IMG/VR virus record: IMGVR_UViG_3300034093_000924
Location: 1-53,965 of that record
Source of the DNA: a virus
Length of the DNA: 53,965 nt
Reading direction: 5' to 3' (one strand)
Shown here: one piece after another, positions 41,412 through 53,207 of the stretch
Layout of the letters: every line of letters starts with the position of its first letter
Numbering within the stretch: position 1 is the stretch's first letter
Program-made: the position numbers and the translations under genes
The notes under the pieces: generated by a model
Told to the model about the DNA's origin: nothing
Seen by the model: only the letters and a program-made list of their open reading frames with translations
The model's database searches: none

Positions 41412-41672
41412 ATGAAACATCAATGGAACACAGGCCGTCAGTATGACGAGCACGGGCAACGCATGGTGGCCGAGGTAGACAGGGAGAACCTGATGGACCT
41501 CCCGCGCATTTACTTCAGCGACCTGTCACGCCACATCAATGGCTTTGTGCCGCTGGGTATGTGGGCACAGACAGGGGACAAGTACGCCATCGAGACGCTG
41601 GTCATGACCAACTACGACTTTGGCAACTACTCACCGAGCAACATAACTCTTGAATGGAAGGAAACAAAATGA
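41412..41672 (+). CDS. Small unknown protein, 86 aa
   Basis: The ATG at 41412 follows AAGGAGAAGTGAG. MKHQWNTGRQYDEHGQRMVA, LPRIYFSDLSRHINGFVPLG and FGNYSPSNITLEWKETK. The DERGQRM-type opening is typical of short phage early proteins. Overlaps the NinX-like gene by 4 nt. Confidence 0.7.
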   Translation: MKHQWNTGRQYDEHGQRMVAEVDRENLMDLPRIYFSDLSRHINGFVPLGMWAQTGDKYAIETLVMTNYDFGNYSPSNITLEWKETK

Positions 41673-41983
41673 AGATCAAAGTAAGTGAATTAACAGGAGC
41701 CGCCCTTGACTGGGCGGTGGGGTACATCATGGGCGAGAAGCTACGCATACTTGACCGACAGATTGTTTGGCCCGAAGACTACTCACCATCGACAGACTGG
41801 GCACAAGGTGGGCCGATCATTGAGCGTGAGGGGATTGCCCTCTATCTGTACGGCGGCTCCGAATGGAATGCCCATGTTGGCGGTCGTGAGTCGGTCGGCC
41901 CCACACCATTAATCGCCGCTATGCGGTGCTATGTGGCAAGCAAGCTGGGTGATGAAGTTGAAATACCAGAGGAGTTGAAATGA
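41669..41983 (+). CDS. ninX: NinX-like protein (DUF2591 family), 104 aa
   Basis: The sequence MKIKVSELTGAALDWAVGYI, then YSPSTDWAQGGPIIEREGIA and TPLIAAMRCYVASKLGDEVE is the family signature of phage DUF2591/NinX proteins, known from lambdoid phages and enterobacterial prophages. The length is as usual for the family. Its biochemical function is unknown. The ATG at 41669 sits in the end of the 86-aa gene with AAGGAAACAAA upstream. It is one of the few recognisable members of the small-gene run. Confidence 0.85.
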   Translation: MKIKVSELTGAALDWAVGYIMGEKLRILDRQIVWPEDYSPSTDWAQGGPIIEREGIALYLYGGSEWNAHVGGRESVGPTPLIAAMRCYVASKLGDEVEIPEELK

Positions 41984-42270: not shown

Positions 42271-43608
42271 ATGAAGATATTGTTTAACAGCACATTCATG
42301 CCAGCCGCCGACATCGTGTACCACCACCGCGCATGGTTCAGGCGTGAGACACGCAAGTACAAACTGCACCCCGTTGTTGAGGCGGCACTTGATGTGTGCC
42401 GTCCTGATGACTGGCATCAGTTGTTGCTTGAGTGGCCGCACATATCCGAGGGTGACCCCGCACGGCTGGCATACACGAGGGACGAGCGTGCAGGTGAGGC
42501 CGACAGACAGACTGTCACCACCATCGGCAAGTATCTGACGCGCCACTTCAGCGATATGCCCGACCACAAGGTGCGTGACTTGGCCGCGCTGTATGGCTCC
42601 AATGGCGAGTGCAGGTTCGTGCACACCATGGCTGAGATGCTGCACCACTTGAAGCGTGGGCCGTCATCGTGTATGACTGGCGACAGGGACTACCGCTGTG
42701 ACGATGGCGTGTTGCGCCATGCCTATGAGGTGTATGACCCGAGCCTTGGCTGGCACATGGCTGTGCGCTTGGAGTTCGGCAAGACTGTGGGCCGTGCGCT
42801 GTGCCACGGCAAGACCTATGTGCGCTCTTACAAGTACAACCCACACGGCAGTGGCTCACCCACTGACGAGACGCTTGAGGCGTGGCTAGAAACACAGGGG
42901 TACGACAAGGAGTGCACATGGGATGGGCTGAAGATCATGCACTACATCACACAAGGCGGCGACACACTGGCCCCCTACCTCGACGGCGACGACAAGTACG
43001 CTACCAAGAAGGGCGGCTACTTGGTCATCACGGACGACCGTGATGCCGAGTACCAGTGCGACAACACAGGCGGCACGGCCAGCGACAACAACGGGTCAAA
43101 CTGTGAGGACTGTGGCGACCGCATGAGCGATGGTGATGGGTACTGGGTTGGCGCAAGCGAGGAGACCCAGGTGTGCGACAGTTGTTTCAACCACAACTAC
43201 ACATATGCGTACAGCAGGCGCGGGCATCAGGCACACATCAACAACGACTATGTGGTGTATGTCGAGTCGCAAGACGCGCACTATGACGAGGACTATCTCG
43301 ACAGCAACAACATTGTGACGCTGGAGAATGGTGAGTACGAGCACACCGACAACGCTGTGGAGATTGACAACGAGTGGTTCCACATCGAGGACGAGAACAT
43401 TGTCTGTGACCACAACGGCGACTACCAACTGCTCAACAACTGTGTGGGACTAGAGAGCGGCGAGTACGCCCTGACCGATGAGGCGTGGCTGTGCGCCGCG
43501 TCTGCCGATTGGTACTTGACCGATGATGTCGAGCCTGTGACTGTGGACGGCGAGAACTACCACCCCGACCATGCACCCGAGCAAGCAACTGAAGAAGAAG
43601 GAGAATGA
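42271..43608 (+). CDS. Cys-rich acidic protein with zinc ribbon and beta repeats, 445 aa
   Basis: The N-terminal 240 residues form a domain I do not recognise (MKILFNSTFMPAADIVYHHR onwards; DYRCDDGVLRHAYEVYDPSL and VRLEFGKTVGRALCHGKTYV look like strands). A zinc ribbon follows, with C278/C281 and C302/C305 (NCEDCGD ... VCDSCF). Residues 310-440 are strongly acidic with beta-hairpin-like repeats (TLENGEYEHTDNAVEIDNEW; GLESGEYALTDEAWLC; VTVDGENYHPD). The stop overlaps the start of the peptidase-like gene, so the two are made together. A substrate, partner or adaptor role for that enzyme is speculation. The ribosome site is GGAGAAGCAAG. Confidence 0.78.
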   Translation: MKILFNSTFMPAADIVYHHRAWFRRETRKYKLHPVVEAALDVCRPDDWHQLLLEWPHISEGDPARLAYTRDERAGEADRQTVTTIGKYLTRHFSDMPDHKVRDLAALYGSNGECRFVHTMAEMLHHLKRGPSSCMTGDRDYRCDDGVLRHAYEVYDPSLGWHMAVRLEFGKTVGRALCHGKTYVRSYKYNPHGSGSPTDETLEAWLETQGYDKECTWDGLKIMHYITQGGDTLAPYLDGDDKYATKKGGYLVITDDRDAEYQCDNTGGTASDNNGSNCEDCGDRMSDGDGYWVGASEETQVCDSCFNHNYTYAYSRRGHQAHINNDYVVYVESQDAHYDEDYLDSNNIVTLENGEYEHTDNAVEIDNEWFHIEDENIVCDHNGDYQLLNNCVGLESGEYALTDEAWLCAASADWYLTDDVEPVTVDGENYHPDHAPEQATEEEGE

Positions 43609-44702
43609 GTATGAACAAGAAATCAATTCTGTATAAGACCCTGGTCCGTGCGTTGTCGCTCAAGCGTCCGCATGGTGGTGCGACTGTTGCTGGCTTCACG
43701 CAATGGCTCGTGGACCGCTTGCCCGATCTGGCCGAGGTGTTCACCGATGCCGCTGGGAATGTGCACATTGATATGCGTAGCAGTGACGACCACCGCACGC
43801 TGTTCGTGGCCCATGTGGATACGGTGCACAAGGACGAGGGGGCCAACAAGTTCCGCAAGACCCAGTACAAGTGGTATGCCGAGGACTCACAGCTTGGCGC
43901 GGATGACGGTGCGGGCTGTGCCATGCTCATGCACCTGATGCACAGCGGTGTGCCTGGGTATTACATCTTCACGCAAGGCGAGGAGCGTGGGGGTATCGGT
44001 GCCAAGCACATAGCCAACACATACGCAGACCTGCTGGGCCAGTTCCAGCGTGCCATTGCGTTCGACCGCAGGGGTGTGGATAGCGTCATCACGCACCAGG
44101 GCTGGGGTCGTTGCTGTTCGGATGGGTTTGGCCAAGCCCTGGCTGATGCGCTCAATGTCGATGAGCGCTTGATGTATATGCCTGACGACACTGGGGTATA
44201 CACCGACACTGCCGAGTTCACCGACATCATCCCCGAGTGCACCAACATCAGCGTGGGCTATGACTTCGAGCACAGCGCCAAGGAGGAGCTGGATGTGTAT
44301 CACTTCGACCTGTTGGCCCAGCAAGCCGTGCTCATTGACTGGGATGGGCTCCCCTCCGAGCGTGACCCCACGGTGCCTGACCTCAAGGACATCCACGACA
44401 CAGGTTGGAGCAAGGGGTGGTGGACCAAGTACGACAAGGATGTGGCCAAGTACGACTACGCCGACATGACAGCGGACTGCTTCGAGGAGGCCATCGAGGA
44501 GGCGCGGGCTGGGTACCCTGAGTACCTGCTGGACTTGATCGCCGAGGCCGCGTACCCCGAGGACATTGACTTGGCCTTGCGCTTCCTCGACAAGCGGCGT
44601 GTGACCAAGGACTTGGTGGACGAGATAGCGCGGCAAGCCCAGGCGTACAACGCAGACACGGCCCTGCTCAATGCGTTCGATGCCCTGTATGCCGAGGTTT
44701 GA
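43605..44702 (+). CDS. M20/M28-like zinc peptidase, 365 aa
   Basis: The co-catalytic metal site is readable in order: LFVAHVDTV (H70, D72), QLGADDGAGCAM (D100/D101), TQGEERGGIGA (E126 catalytic base, E127 ligand), AIAFDRRG (D154) and DFEHSAKEELD (H223). This set matches aminopeptidase/carboxypeptidase-type M20, M28 and M42 enzymes. The C-terminal 120 residues are an extra acidic helical region (DCFEEAIEEARAGYPEYLLD). Cleavage of a small peptide or amide bond is predicted; the substrate is unknown. Such an enzyme is uncommon among early phage genes. It is coupled to the Cys-rich gene by a 4-nt overlap. The second ATG, two codons in, could also start. Confidence 0.82.
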   Translation: MSMNKKSILYKTLVRALSLKRPHGGATVAGFTQWLVDRLPDLAEVFTDAAGNVHIDMRSSDDHRTLFVAHVDTVHKDEGANKFRKTQYKWYAEDSQLGADDGAGCAMLMHLMHSGVPGYYIFTQGEERGGIGAKHIANTYADLLGQFQRAIAFDRRGVDSVITHQGWGRCCSDGFGQALADALNVDERLMYMPDDTGVYTDTAEFTDIIPECTNISVGYDFEHSAKEELDVYHFDLLAQQAVLIDWDGLPSERDPTVPDLKDIHDTGWSKGWWTKYDKDVAKYDYADMTADCFEEAIEEARAGYPEYLLDLIAEAAYPEDIDLALRFLDKRRVTKDLVDEIARQAQAYNADTALLNAFDALYAEV

Positions 44703-44735: not shown

Positions 44736-44879
44736 ATGTTTGATGAACTTTATTGCGTGTACTGCGCTACCCCCAAGGGGGACAGCTACTCTTGTTGCCA
44801 AGAGAACCATTTCGTGCCGTTCGGTGATCTTTATCCCGAAGATCAGGCGGCGTTACTTGAGGAGATGAAAGATGACTGA
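44736..44879 (+). CDS. Small Cys-rich protein, 47 aa
   Basis: ATG at 44736 after AAAAGGAAC. The product MFDELYCVYCATPKGDSYSC continues C, QENHFVPFGDLYPED. A CxxC and a CC pair plus His suggest a minimal zinc knuckle. It overlaps the next gene by 8 nt. Short knuckles with CCQENHF-like ends recur in phages. Function unknown. Confidence 0.68.
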   Translation: MFDELYCVYCATPKGDSYSCCQENHFVPFGDLYPEDQAALLEEMKDD

Positions 44880-45159
44880 CAAGACCTACAACGGCTGGAC
44901 CAACTACGCCACATGGCGTGTGAACCTGGAGATATTCGATGACGCGGACAAAGCCGAACTGTTCGATCTATCCTTGCCTGTTGAACAACTGCGCCATGTG
45001 CTGCAAGACTATGTGGAGGAACACATCTACGAGGCAGGCGGGGGCGACGAAGGCAACATCGCCGTTGACTACGCGCTGGCGTTCCTGTCCGATGTGAATT
45101 GGTACGAGATCGCCAAGCACATGATTGACGATGCACAACTGGAGAAGTCTGATGAATAA
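44872..45159 (+). CDS. Conserved phage early protein, 95 aa
   Basis: MTDKTYNGWTNYATWRVNLE and IFDDADKAELFDLSLPVEQL form the recognisable NGWTNYxTWxVNLxIF opening of a small family found in many phages. The remainder is helical and acidic (EEHIYEAGGGDEGNIAVDYA, WYEIAKHMIDDAQ). Function unknown. Confidence 0.75.
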   Translation: MTDKTYNGWTNYATWRVNLEIFDDADKAELFDLSLPVEQLRHVLQDYVEEHIYEAGGGDEGNIAVDYALAFLSDVNWYEIAKHMIDDAQLEKSDE

Positions 45160-49759: not shown

Positions 49760-50025
49760 CACAAGAGGACATAGAGGCGCGAGTGGCGTCTATGACCGAT
49801 GCCCAGAAGGACCACTTCAAAACGCTGGTGTACGCACTGCTCCAGTGCTACGCCGAGGATAAGCACGCTGCTGTCATTGTGCTGGGCGACCTGACCGATG
49901 AGAGCGCCAGCGTAATCACAGTCAACTGCAACGAGATGGATGCAGCCACGCTGCTGCTGGCAGCGGATAACTTTTTCAACTACATCAACATGCGTGAAGC
50001 ACCACCCAAAGAGGCCATGAATTGA
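49750..50025 (+). CDS. Small unknown protein before the polymerase, 91 aa
   Basis: The ATG at 49750 is preceded by AAAGGAACTGCT. MRITQEDIEARVASMTDAQK, then DHFKTLVYALLQCYAEDKHA and ESASVITVNCNEMDAATLLL. Alpha/beta, similar in pattern to small phage proteins between nuclease and polymerase genes. Function unknown. It overlaps the polymerase by 4 nt (TTGA). Confidence 0.7.
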   Translation: MRITQEDIEARVASMTDAQKDHFKTLVYALLQCYAEDKHAAVIVLGDLTDESASVITVNCNEMDAATLLLAADNFFNYINMREAPPKEAMN

Positions 50026-51989
50026 CCAAACCATTTGACAGAATACTATGCATCGACTTTGAGACACGTTGGAGTAGCAAGGACTACACGCTGTCCAAGA
50101 TGACAACAGAGGAGTACATACGTGACAATAAGTTCGTGGCTTTCGGAGCCTGTACACATGAGTTCGGAAGCGACGAGCCGATTGAATGGGTTAGAGGACC
50201 AGATTTATCTGAGTACTTTTCTGGCATCGACTGGGGACGAACCGCCGTGCTTGCACATAACGCCCAATTCGATATTTCCATCCTTGAGTGGCGATATGAC
50301 TGTCACCCCGTCTTCATCTTCGACACCCTATCAATGGCAAGAGCTTTACGCGGCGTGGAAGTTGGCAATTCCCTCGCCAAACTGGCAGGAGATTTTGGTC
50401 TTCCCCCCAAAGGGAGAGCCGTACATAGTACCGATGGACTGGCCGTCCTTGAGCCTGAGACAGAAAGAGAACTTGCTGAGTATTGTCAGCACGACGTATA
50501 TCTCTGCGAACAAATATTCGAAAGACTCTCGGCGGGCTACCCTAGATCGGAACTACACCTTATTGACATGACGCTCAAAATGTACACACGACCAGTGTTG
50601 CAACTTGACCAAAAGATGTTGATACAAGCATTGACAGAAGAAGGAAACATACGTGAAGCGCTCCTACAACGTCTTAACATCAATGAGTCTGAACTGGCGT
50701 CAAACCCTAAGTTTGCGCAGATTCTTACAGGCCTTGGCGTTACACCCCCGACAAAAATCAGTAAGACCACAGGCAAGCAAACGCTTGCCCTGGCAAAAAA
50801 CGATGCTCTCTTCCAAGCCCTCCTCAATGGCTCGAACGAAGATGTTGCGCTCCTTTGCGAAGCGCGTCTCAAAGTCAAATCAACAACCGAACGCACAAGG
50901 GCACAGCGGTTCTTGGACATCAGCCAGCGCGGCCCGCTCCCGGTTCCGCTTTCGTACTACGGTGCTCAGACTGGCAGGTGGACAGCGGCCAAGGGCAGTG
51001 CCATCAACATGCAAAACCTCAAGCGAAAGTCGTTCTTACGTAAAGCGATTATGGCTCCCGATGGCTACCAACTCGTTGTCGGCGACCTCTCGCAGATTGA
51101 GCCGCGAGTACTCGCGTGGCTGGCCGACTACGATGATATGCTCAACATCTTCCGGGCTGGAGGTGACCCTTACGCGGCATTCGGAAGTCAGATGTTTAAC
51201 ATACCCGGGCTTACTAAGGATTCTCATCCAGACCTGCGGCAGTCTGCAAAAAGCGCGTTACTGGGCTGCGGCTATGGTCTGGGCTGGGCATCGTTCGCGT
51301 CACAGCTTCTTACGGGATTCCTTGGGGCCCCCCCAGTTCGCTACTCGAAAGAGTTTGCTAAAGCACTGGGCGTGGACGGAGAATATGCGCAACGCTTCCT
51401 AGACTGGGATGAGAACGTCACGAAGCTGGAGGAAATCCCCCGCATCTGCACGAGCAAGGAACTGCTGGTGCACTGCCTTGCGGCCAAGAAGATCATCGAC
51501 ATCTACCGGGCAACTGCCGCACCTGTCGTAGAGATGTGGGACTTGTTTGGCCAACTCATCGAGCGCAGCCTGTACAACGGCAAGGAGTACACGCACAAGT
51601 GCCTGACCTTCAAGAAGGGGGAGATCATCTTGCCAAGCGGTATGAGTTTGTTGTATCCTGATCTCAAGCCCCTCAAGGATGACAAGGGCCGGGTGCAGTG
51701 GGTTTACGGCCCCGACCAGACCAAGCTATATGCTGGTAAGATAACGAACAACGTCACGCAGGGCGTAGCAAGATGTGTGATGACAGACGGGATGCTTCGC
51801 GTAGCAAAACAGTATCCAGTCAAAGGGACAGTGCATGACGAGCTGATCGCCGTGGTGCCTGACGATGAAGTAGCCACCGCTAAGACATGGGTCTTGGCGC
51901 AAATGACTATGGAGCCGAAGTACTTGCCGGGGATACCCCTGGCCGCTGACGGTGGTGCGCACCGTCGTTATGGGTTAGCAAAAAATTAA
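50022..51989 (+). CDS. Family A DNA polymerase, 655 aa, TTG start
   Basis: The N-terminal 3'-5' exonuclease shows ILCIDFETRW (D12, E14), LAHNAQFDISIL (D84) and YCQHDVYLCEQIF (D158). The polymerase domain has motif A VVGDLSQIEPRVLAW (D355), motif B RQSAKSALLGCGYGLGWASF (R406, K410, Y418) and motif C GTVHDELIAVV (H605-D606-E607). No 5'-nuclease domain. It copies the phage genome, T7 style. The start is TTG overlapping the preceding TGA; no ATG or GTG exists before the exonuclease motif. Confidence 0.95.
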   Translation: MTKPFDRILCIDFETRWSSKDYTLSKMTTEEYIRDNKFVAFGACTHEFGSDEPIEWVRGPDLSEYFSGIDWGRTAVLAHNAQFDISILEWRYDCHPVFIFDTLSMARALRGVEVGNSLAKLAGDFGLPPKGRAVHSTDGLAVLEPETERELAEYCQHDVYLCEQIFERLSAGYPRSELHLIDMTLKMYTRPVLQLDQKMLIQALTEEGNIREALLQRLNINESELASNPKFAQILTGLGVTPPTKISKTTGKQTLALAKNDALFQALLNGSNEDVALLCEARLKVKSTTERTRAQRFLDISQRGPLPVPLSYYGAQTGRWTAAKGSAINMQNLKRKSFLRKAIMAPDGYQLVVGDLSQIEPRVLAWLADYDDMLNIFRAGGDPYAAFGSQMFNIPGLTKDSHPDLRQSAKSALLGCGYGLGWASFASQLLTGFLGAPPVRYSKEFAKALGVDGEYAQRFLDWDENVTKLEEIPRICTSKELLVHCLAAKKIIDIYRATAAPVVEMWDLFGQLIERSLYNGKEYTHKCLTFKKGEIILPSGMSLLYPDLKPLKDDKGRVQWVYGPDQTKLYAGKITNNVTQGVARCVMTDGMLRVAKQYPVKGTVHDELIAVVPDDEVATAKTWVLAQMTMEPKYLPGIPLAADGGAHRRYGLAKN

Positions 51990-52316: not shown

Positions 52317-52549
52317 TGATTCACGAAGTAATTTACGAAGACGACAAACCAGTGTTCGTGCGCTTCTATGCGGTGGCCGTGTCAGACTACGGCAGTGAGG
52401 GGTGCACGCCTACGCATCGAGAAGAATGTCCACTTACTGGCTTTGTTGCGTGCGTGGGTCGATCAGGCGACAACATCTGCGGCGGGTACTACGGCCACGC
52501 AGGTCCTCATGTTGTTAAGTGCCGCGAACAAAGGAAAGCAAATGGCTAA
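52316..52549 (+). CDS. Small Cys/His-rich protein, 77 aa
   Basis: The ATG at 52316 overlaps the previous TGA. MIHEVIYEDDKPVFVRFYAV, then GCTPTHREECPLTGFVACVG and DNICGGYYGHAGPHVVKCRE. Five cysteines and several histidines could bind zinc. No family is recognised. A TTG one codon earlier is an alternative start. Confidence 0.65.
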   Translation: MIHEVIYEDDKPVFVRFYAVAVSDYGSEGCTPTHREECPLTGFVACVGRSGDNICGGYYGHAGPHVVKCREQRKANG

Positions 52550-53207
52550 GGTGACATGGAGCCACAGTGCTCTCAAGGATTTCGAAGGGTGCGCACGCAG
52601 GCACCACGAAGTCAAGGTGCTCAACAACTATCCGTTCCAAGAGACGGAGGCCACGCGCTACGGCACGAGCTTTCACTCAGCGGCTGAAGTCTACATTCGG
52701 GACGGCACACCGCTGCCCCCTGAGTTTGCTTACGCCACGGCGGTGCTTGATGCGCTCCTGGCCAAACCGGGGAGGAAGCTGTGCGAGTACGAGATGGGCA
52801 TCACCCCGGACTTGCAGCCGTGCTCCTTCAACGAACCCAAGCGCTGGGTGCGGGGCATCGCTGACTTGCTCATCATTGACGACGACAACTTGACCGCCTC
52901 GGTGCTGGACTACAAGACGGGCAACAACAAGTACCCAGATCGTGACCAGCTAAAGCTCATGTCCCTCATGGTGTTCAAGCACTTCCCCCATATCCGCAAG
53001 GTGCGTTCAGCGCTGCTGTTCGTGGTCAAGAACGATATGGTCAAACACACCATGGCCGTGGACGAGACCGAGGCTGAGTGGTGGCGCTATCGTGAGCGTG
53101 TGGCCAAGCTGGAGTCCTGCTATGCCACAGGCGTATGGAACCCAACGCGCACCCCGCTGTGCGGCTGGTGCCCTGTGAGATCATGTGAGTTCAACCCTAA
53201 ACACTGA
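52542..53207 (+). CDS. PD-(D/E)XK nuclease, Cas4/RecB-like with Fe-S cysteines, 221 aa
   Basis: The ATG at 52542 follows AAAGGAAAGCAA. Nuclease core: GTSFHSAAE (H45), RGIADLLIID (D108), SVLDYKTG (D123, K125) and RDQLKLMSL (Q136). Cysteines C17 (FEGCARR) and C207, C210, C215 (LCGWCPVRSC) have the one-plus-three layout of the 4Fe-4S cluster in Cas4, AddB and RecB-like exonucleases. It probably degrades or resects DNA ends during recombination, with the helicase encoded two genes downstream. Confidence 0.9.
   Translation: MAKVTWSHSALKDFEGCARRHHEVKVLNNYPFQETEATRYGTSFHSAAEVYIRDGTPLPPEFAYATAVLDALLAKPGRKLCEYEMGITPDLQPCSFNEPKRWVRGIADLLIIDDDNLTASVLDYKTGNNKYPDRDQLKLMSLMVFKHFPHIRKVRSALLFVVKNDMVKHTMAVDETEAEWWRYRERVAKLESCYATGVWNPTRTPLCGWCPVRSCEFNPKH

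Follow-up and report, generated by a model that had tools for sequence, protein, structure and literature searches.

The closest described relatives of the two genes analyzed here are found in KP34-like and Phimunavirus phages, in which a 'hypothetical protein' followed by a 'putative peptidase' was reported among the conserved early genes (PMC4411677, PMC6115819). The peptidases of these phages (KP34 p11, PhiM1 gp10, and relatives) are members of family phrog_4191 and are encoded before the primase; no member of this family was found with a tested function. The proteins encoded directly upstream of them are hypothetical proteins of the KP34 p10 type (phrog_6980 and phrog_13313). A toxicity screen of unknown proteins from Klebsiella phage fHe-Kpn01 confirmed only gp10, gp22, and gp38, which at 69, 182, and 146 aa are all too short to be the upstream protein (PMC7291057). 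In the literature searched, no paper was found that treated the two genes as a system. Below, the upstream protein is called A and the peptidase B.

The gene pair and its setting

The window comes from a tailed phage and is a complete IMG/VR virus record, 53,965 bases in length. It contained gene A at 42271..43608 and gene B at 43605..44702, both on the plus strand. From the ORF list, the relatives, and an AlphaFold2 model, gene A was predicted to encode a 445-aa partner protein with a conserved N-terminal domain, a zinc ribbon, and an acidic, beta-rich C-terminus. Gene B was assigned as a 365-aa clan MH metallopeptidase from its Pfam (M28) and PHROG (phrog_4191) matches and from Foldseek matches to PepT, M42, and the DapE catalytic domain. 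The positions were exactly those of the original prediction, and the genes overlapped by 4 nt, an ATGA at 43605..43608 (plus strand) that combines the start of B with the stop of A.

Both genes were located in a plus-strand arm together with DNA polymerase A (50022-51989), a PD-(D/E)XK exonuclease (52368-53207), and the start of a helicase at the end of the window, while the portal and terminase were encoded on the opposite, minus strand. This position suggests early expression of the pair. A 109-aa ORF shortly upstream of A (41654-41983, plus strand) matched phrog_4389, a family of unknown function (E 9.7e-32). The next sizeable ORF downstream of B (44872-45159, plus strand, 95 aa) contained DUF7249 (PF23907, above the cut-off) and matched phrog_871 at its N-terminus. 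No near relative of the A-B region was found among GenBank phages by megablast.

The peptidase

B matched the phrog_4191 'peptidase' profile, which covers the catalytic domain, over residues 11-285 (E 7e-67), and Pfam M28 (PF04389) over residues 52-159 only, at 26.1 bits compared to a gathering score of 21.3. A profile search of the PDB found PepT (3gb0, 3rza), and the AlphaFold2 model of B (pLDDT 87.8) matched 3gb0, TET peptidases, and the isolated catalytic domain of DapE, with E values from 1.8e-10 to 9e-7. The best matches in both sequence and fold were the PepT-like tripeptidases (M20B; 3gb0, 3rza), and the M42 tetrahedral (TET) aminopeptidases had the same catalytic domain fold and ligand order. 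B nevertheless differed from both groups. The lid, or dimerization, domain that separates the fourth ligand from the last His in M20 and PepT enzymes was absent, as the 69 residues between D154 and H223 leave no room for it, and the PepT-like model scored only 21.7 bits against a cut-off of 274. The beta domain that M42 enzymes have between the first His and the bridging Asp was absent as well, with only 30 residues between H70 and D100.

The catalytic domain, delimited by conservation and the AlphaFold2 model, comprises residues 1-255 (43605..44369, plus strand) and contains the full clan MH ligand set (H-x-D, D, E-E, D/E, H) in order, as H70, D72, D100, E126, E127, D154, and H223. All seven residues were unchanged in 44 non-redundant relatives and invariant in 16 divergent peptidases with identities down to 17%, which included enzymes from phi38:1, Thermus and Brevibacillus phages, huge phages, and plasmids. 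The complete co-catalytic zinc site that had been predicted from the sequence was thus confirmed, and its residues are kept in the homologs. Where the prediction had listed D100/D101 together as metal residues, D100 is the ligand, because D101 was replaced by Cys in several relatives. Contrary to the suggestion that early phage genes seldom encode an enzyme of this kind, related peptidases were found in 375 GenBank phage records.

In clan MH, Asp as the fourth ligand is characteristic of aminopeptidases, and Glu of carboxypeptidases and deacylases. With D154 at this position, B is most likely an aminopeptidase, which we regard as a lead from the sequence. A minimal dizinc enzyme of this clan, with neither the M20 lid nor the M42 insertion, may have an open active site with access to protein or peptide ends, where it would hydrolyze an N-terminal or amide bond.

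Residues 256-365 (44370..44702, plus strand) form an acidic C-terminal extension, recognized from the AlphaFold2 model and the alignments, which was predicted to consist of helices and a disordered linker (262-286) and showed little conservation outside the clade of the window. This poorly conserved helical extension distinguishes B from the other phrog_4191 members, which have the same ligands. An exact-pattern scan of public genomes for B yielded a single weak match. The peptidase was split into two ORFs in Pseudomonas phage YMC11/06/C171 and in one further locus (L054), with the partner gene present; a frameshift, a sequencing error, or real loss are candidate causes.

The partner protein

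A belonged to no named family in Pfam, NCBIfam, PADLOC, or PHROG. Scans of all 54 relatives of A against Pfam and PHROG gave no consistent Pfam family, and phrog_13313 and phrog_6980 matched only some of the relatives and not A itself. Its most widely conserved part was an N-terminal domain of about residues 22-239 (42334..42987, plus strand), identified by conservation and hhalign and here called the SCM domain after its signature SCM...Y...GRA...RxY...PYxD. The conserved residues in 50 diverse members were S133-C134-M135, Y155, G174-R175-A176, R185-x-Y187, and P235-Y236-x-D238. Because the alignment of these members had been trimmed to the surroundings of the SCM and GRA motifs, C134, M135, and R175 were partly selected for; their conservation in an unselected HMM set was 0.97-0.98. 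The domain is common to A and the KP34 p10-type proteins and was previously undefined. Those proteins (phrog_6980 and phrog_13313) are the counterparts of A in KP34-like and Phimunavirus-like phages, and like A are encoded directly upstream of the peptidase, but they have extra N-terminal sequence and are 580-660 aa in length compared to 445 aa.

The SCM domain is followed by a zinc ribbon with the CxxC...CxxC pattern (C278-x2-C281-x20-C302-x2-C305; 43102..43185, plus strand), which was present in all 54 close relatives, those of the window clade, and lost in several distant ones. The remainder, residues 306-445 (43186..43605, plus strand), is acidic and beta-rich, as judged by composition and by DSSP on the AlphaFold2 model (mean pLDDT 92.6), in which the C-terminus was a succession of short beta-strands. 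Over the last 185 residues, D/E made up 24% and K/R 1.6%, with a pI of 4.05. The initial description of A as an acidic protein with a zinc ribbon and beta repeats agreed with these results, but it had overlooked the conserved SCM domain.

No match was obtained in PDB sequence searches with A or the SCM set, in a search of phages with the C-terminal part of A alone, or in pattern scans with two SCM-type proteins. When the model of A was compared to models of viral proteins with Foldseek, 27 matches passed E 0.001, most of them uncharacterized phage proteins, including proteins of KP34-like, Vibrio, and Pectobacterium phages; a phage protein annotated 'LIM domain' and a protein of a giant virus (Edafosvirus) were matched as well.

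Co-occurrence of the two genes

Gene A was located directly 5' of gene B in essentially every IMG/VR locus that had upstream DNA, giving 94 pairs, a total in which seven reference loci are included and a few contigs appear twice. In four further loci only the upstream DNA was missing, and the other flagged loci comprised a split ORF, a start that had been mis-called, and PPWS1, where the SCM motif was present in the upstream protein. The genes were spaced by -4 nt, as in the window, in 25 of the 94 pairs; in another 44 the spacing was +1 to +3 nt. Among the GenBank records opened, an A-type protein was encoded directly upstream of B in Pasto, Peggy, AL-1, phi1_146045, PPWS1, BDU-MI-1, Ep4, NTUH-K2044-K1-1, and YMC11/06/C171. 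The pair was present in every Autographivirales phage opened, and also in Rhizobium phage Pasto and Bradyrhizobium phage BDU-MI-1. In phages it was positioned before the primase or helicase, or in the replication arm. By tblastn, B was found in 375 GenBank phage records and A, the faster-diverging of the two, in 35.

Distances among A proteins co-varied with those among B proteins (Mantel r 0.89 for 53 loci and 0.75 for 47 IMG/VR loci; 0 of 2000 permutations), a correlation that is in part due to shared phage ancestry. The pair was also carried by four plasmids, from Limnohabitans, Sphingopyxis, Methylobacterium (two tandem pairs), and Shinella (decayed). Association of the two genes across phages, which the original prediction had proposed as a check, was therefore strong in the IMG/VR loci, in the Autographivirales, and on plasmids, rather than rare. 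In Thermus phage P23-45 and Brevibacillus phage SecTim467, B was found without a detectable SCM protein, indicating that B can work without A.

Several of these loci had individual features. On the Methylobacterium plasmid pVL1_2 the whole pair was tandemly duplicated, with genes of the glutamate-tRNA ligase family and ProQ/FinO close by. In Shinella sp. PSBB067 the ORF 5' of the peptidase (L105:1978-4848, plus strand) encoded a T7-type RNA polymerase fused in-frame to the C-terminal part of A, an arrangement that suggests a decayed prophage with a deletion. Near the SecTim467 peptidase was a gene for a protein with a DnaJ-type zinc domain (L109:869-2269, minus strand), which was missed by the SCM profile and may be a very distant SCM relative.

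Distant SCM relatives and huge phages

Proteins with the SCM signature also adjoined B-type peptidases in uncultured phages of 0.63-0.74 Mb. Profile comparison of A with the SCM proteins of the huge phages and phi38:1 by hhalign gave a probability of 96% (E 2.7e-9), and 86% (E 4.9e-6) with another alignment. In Cellulophaga phage phi38:1 and in Calle_1 there was one SCM gene and one peptidase gene, which were adjacent with the peptidase first, the reverse of the order in the window. In contig L121 the SCM gene overlapped the peptidase gene and a DnaB-type helicase was next. An RtcB-type RNA ligase gene and two tRNA-Glu genes were located within about 6 kb of the phi38:1 pair; for Calle_1, a tmRNA is annotated in the vicinity of the pair.

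There was a striking expansion of paralogs in the four huge phages (LR756501.1, LR756502.1, LR756504.1, and LR745206.1; 634-735 kb; loci L107, L108, L112-L114, and L116), in which some of the SCM genes and phrog_4191-type peptidase genes formed tandem clusters. The four genomes had 8, 20, 14, and 9 SCM matches, a few of which were fragments of one gene, and 4, 5, 8, and 5 peptidases, respectively. For the 25 peptidases from the huge phages, phi38:1, and one 75-kb contig, an SCM gene was found within 1.5 kb in 5 cases (P 0.055) and within 10 kb in 13 cases (P 0.014). This adjacency is borderline above random and was not used as a main argument. Instead of the zinc ribbon, one huge-phage SCM protein (L114:41132-42664, minus strand) carried a DnaJ-type CxxCxGxG zinc domain at its C-terminus.

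Proposed function and alternatives

The presence of the SCM domain next to B across unrelated phages and plasmids makes the pair a testable two-protein system. The reading that we favor, tentatively and with slightly less than even confidence, is that A and B form an early two-protein module for amide chemistry that acts in the host cell and serves host takeover, with B as the catalyst and A as its dedicated partner. Host proteins or peptides would be the targets, and the two probably work on them together. Intracellular host targets, rather than the cell wall, are suggested by the early or replication position, the carriage on plasmids, and the fact that no obvious signal peptide is present. 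The SCM domain, zinc ribbon, and acidic C-terminus of A may recognize the target and so give B its specificity, presumably through physical contact between the two proteins; alternatively, A could itself perform the paired reaction, for example by adding the group that B trims. The outcome would be that particular host proteins or peptides, possibly those of a defence, are changed or inactivated. The strongest statement that the data allow is that of a putative functional pair in which B would hydrolyze an amide bond and A would provide target recognition or the opposite reaction. The original prediction had the pair cleaving or removing a small peptide or amide tag in the host. Its idea of a functional pair whose zinc site is intact was supported, and removal of a tag is compatible with the PepT/M42/M28-like fold and the Asp fourth ligand, at the level of enzyme class.

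Among the alternatives, it appears unlikely that the pair is an anti-defence cassette in which A counters a host defence as an acidic decoy or inhibitor with a DNA-mimic-like C-terminus and B degrades one of that defence's peptides or proteins. The low pI of the C-terminal half of A would fit, as would an ArdA-like antirestriction gene neighboring the pair in phage Pasto and the ParB, N-6 methylase, HEPN, and Abi-type genes among the plasmid neighbors. However, the neighbors vary among genomes, no PADLOC match was found for A, B, or their relatives (E <= 0.1), and the conserved part of A is its N-terminal domain. That the acidic tail is the variable part made a DNA mimic less probable.

We consider it quite unlikely that A is a GNAT-fold transferase that couples amino acids or acyl groups to a target amine, forming an amide that B removes or edits; the donor would perhaps be an aminoacyl-tRNA, as for FemX. 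In a Foldseek comparison of the A model with the PDB, 42 of the 50 best matches had the GNAT fold, and the first were aminoacyl-tRNA-dependent peptide synthases and FemX (E 0.02-0.06). The SCM core reads as strand-strand-helix (GRA...DRIYT...helix). The CoA pyrophosphate loop (Q/R-x-x-G-x-G/A) was found in none of the 54 window-clade A proteins, as in tRNA-dependent GNAT members, and in 3 of 25 distant loops by a loose pattern only. The many SCM paralogs per peptidase in huge phages are also consistent with such a role. Against it, no fold match of A fell below E 0.02 and TM-scores were under 0.45; FemX and the GNAT-fold aminoacyl transferases are the nearest solved folds but match weakly and without sequence similarity. 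Profile comparison of A and the SCM set with GNAT and FemAB sets gave no signal, in a weak test in which the GNAT and FemAB sets also missed each other, and the invariant Cys is not among the hallmarks of GNAT proteins. The low probability given to this role reflects its dependence on a weak GNAT fold.

Finally, it is quite improbable that B, which resembles tripeptidase PepT and the TET aminopeptidases known for peptide recycling and which occurs without A in two phages, simply frees amino acids from host peptides for phage protein synthesis while A is a separate early protein of host takeover that is merely co-transcribed, because an SCM partner adjoins B in unrelated phages in both gene orders, A and B were duplicated as a pair, and the pair is found on plasmids, which have no obvious need for amino-acid recycling, so that a purely nutritional B leaves the conserved partner and the plasmid carriage unexplained.

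Under the favored two-protein module, a peptidase that has long been annotated but without a role in hundreds of KP34-like and related phages, and whose neighbor was always 'hypothetical', gains a partner whose SCM domain travels with it through the Autographivirales, crAss-like phages, huge phages, and plasmids. The invariant residues C134, Y155, and R175 in A and E126 in B offer sites for mutation. A further reading, in which the SCM domain is an unrecognized CoA-independent, GNAT-like transferase that uses its invariant Cys-containing fold to modify targets with an amino acid or acyl group and the paired clan MH peptidase trims this group, is decidedly unlikely; if true, the genes would represent a widespread phage and plasmid system of protein modification, of which huge phages would have as many as 20 writers and 8 erasers.
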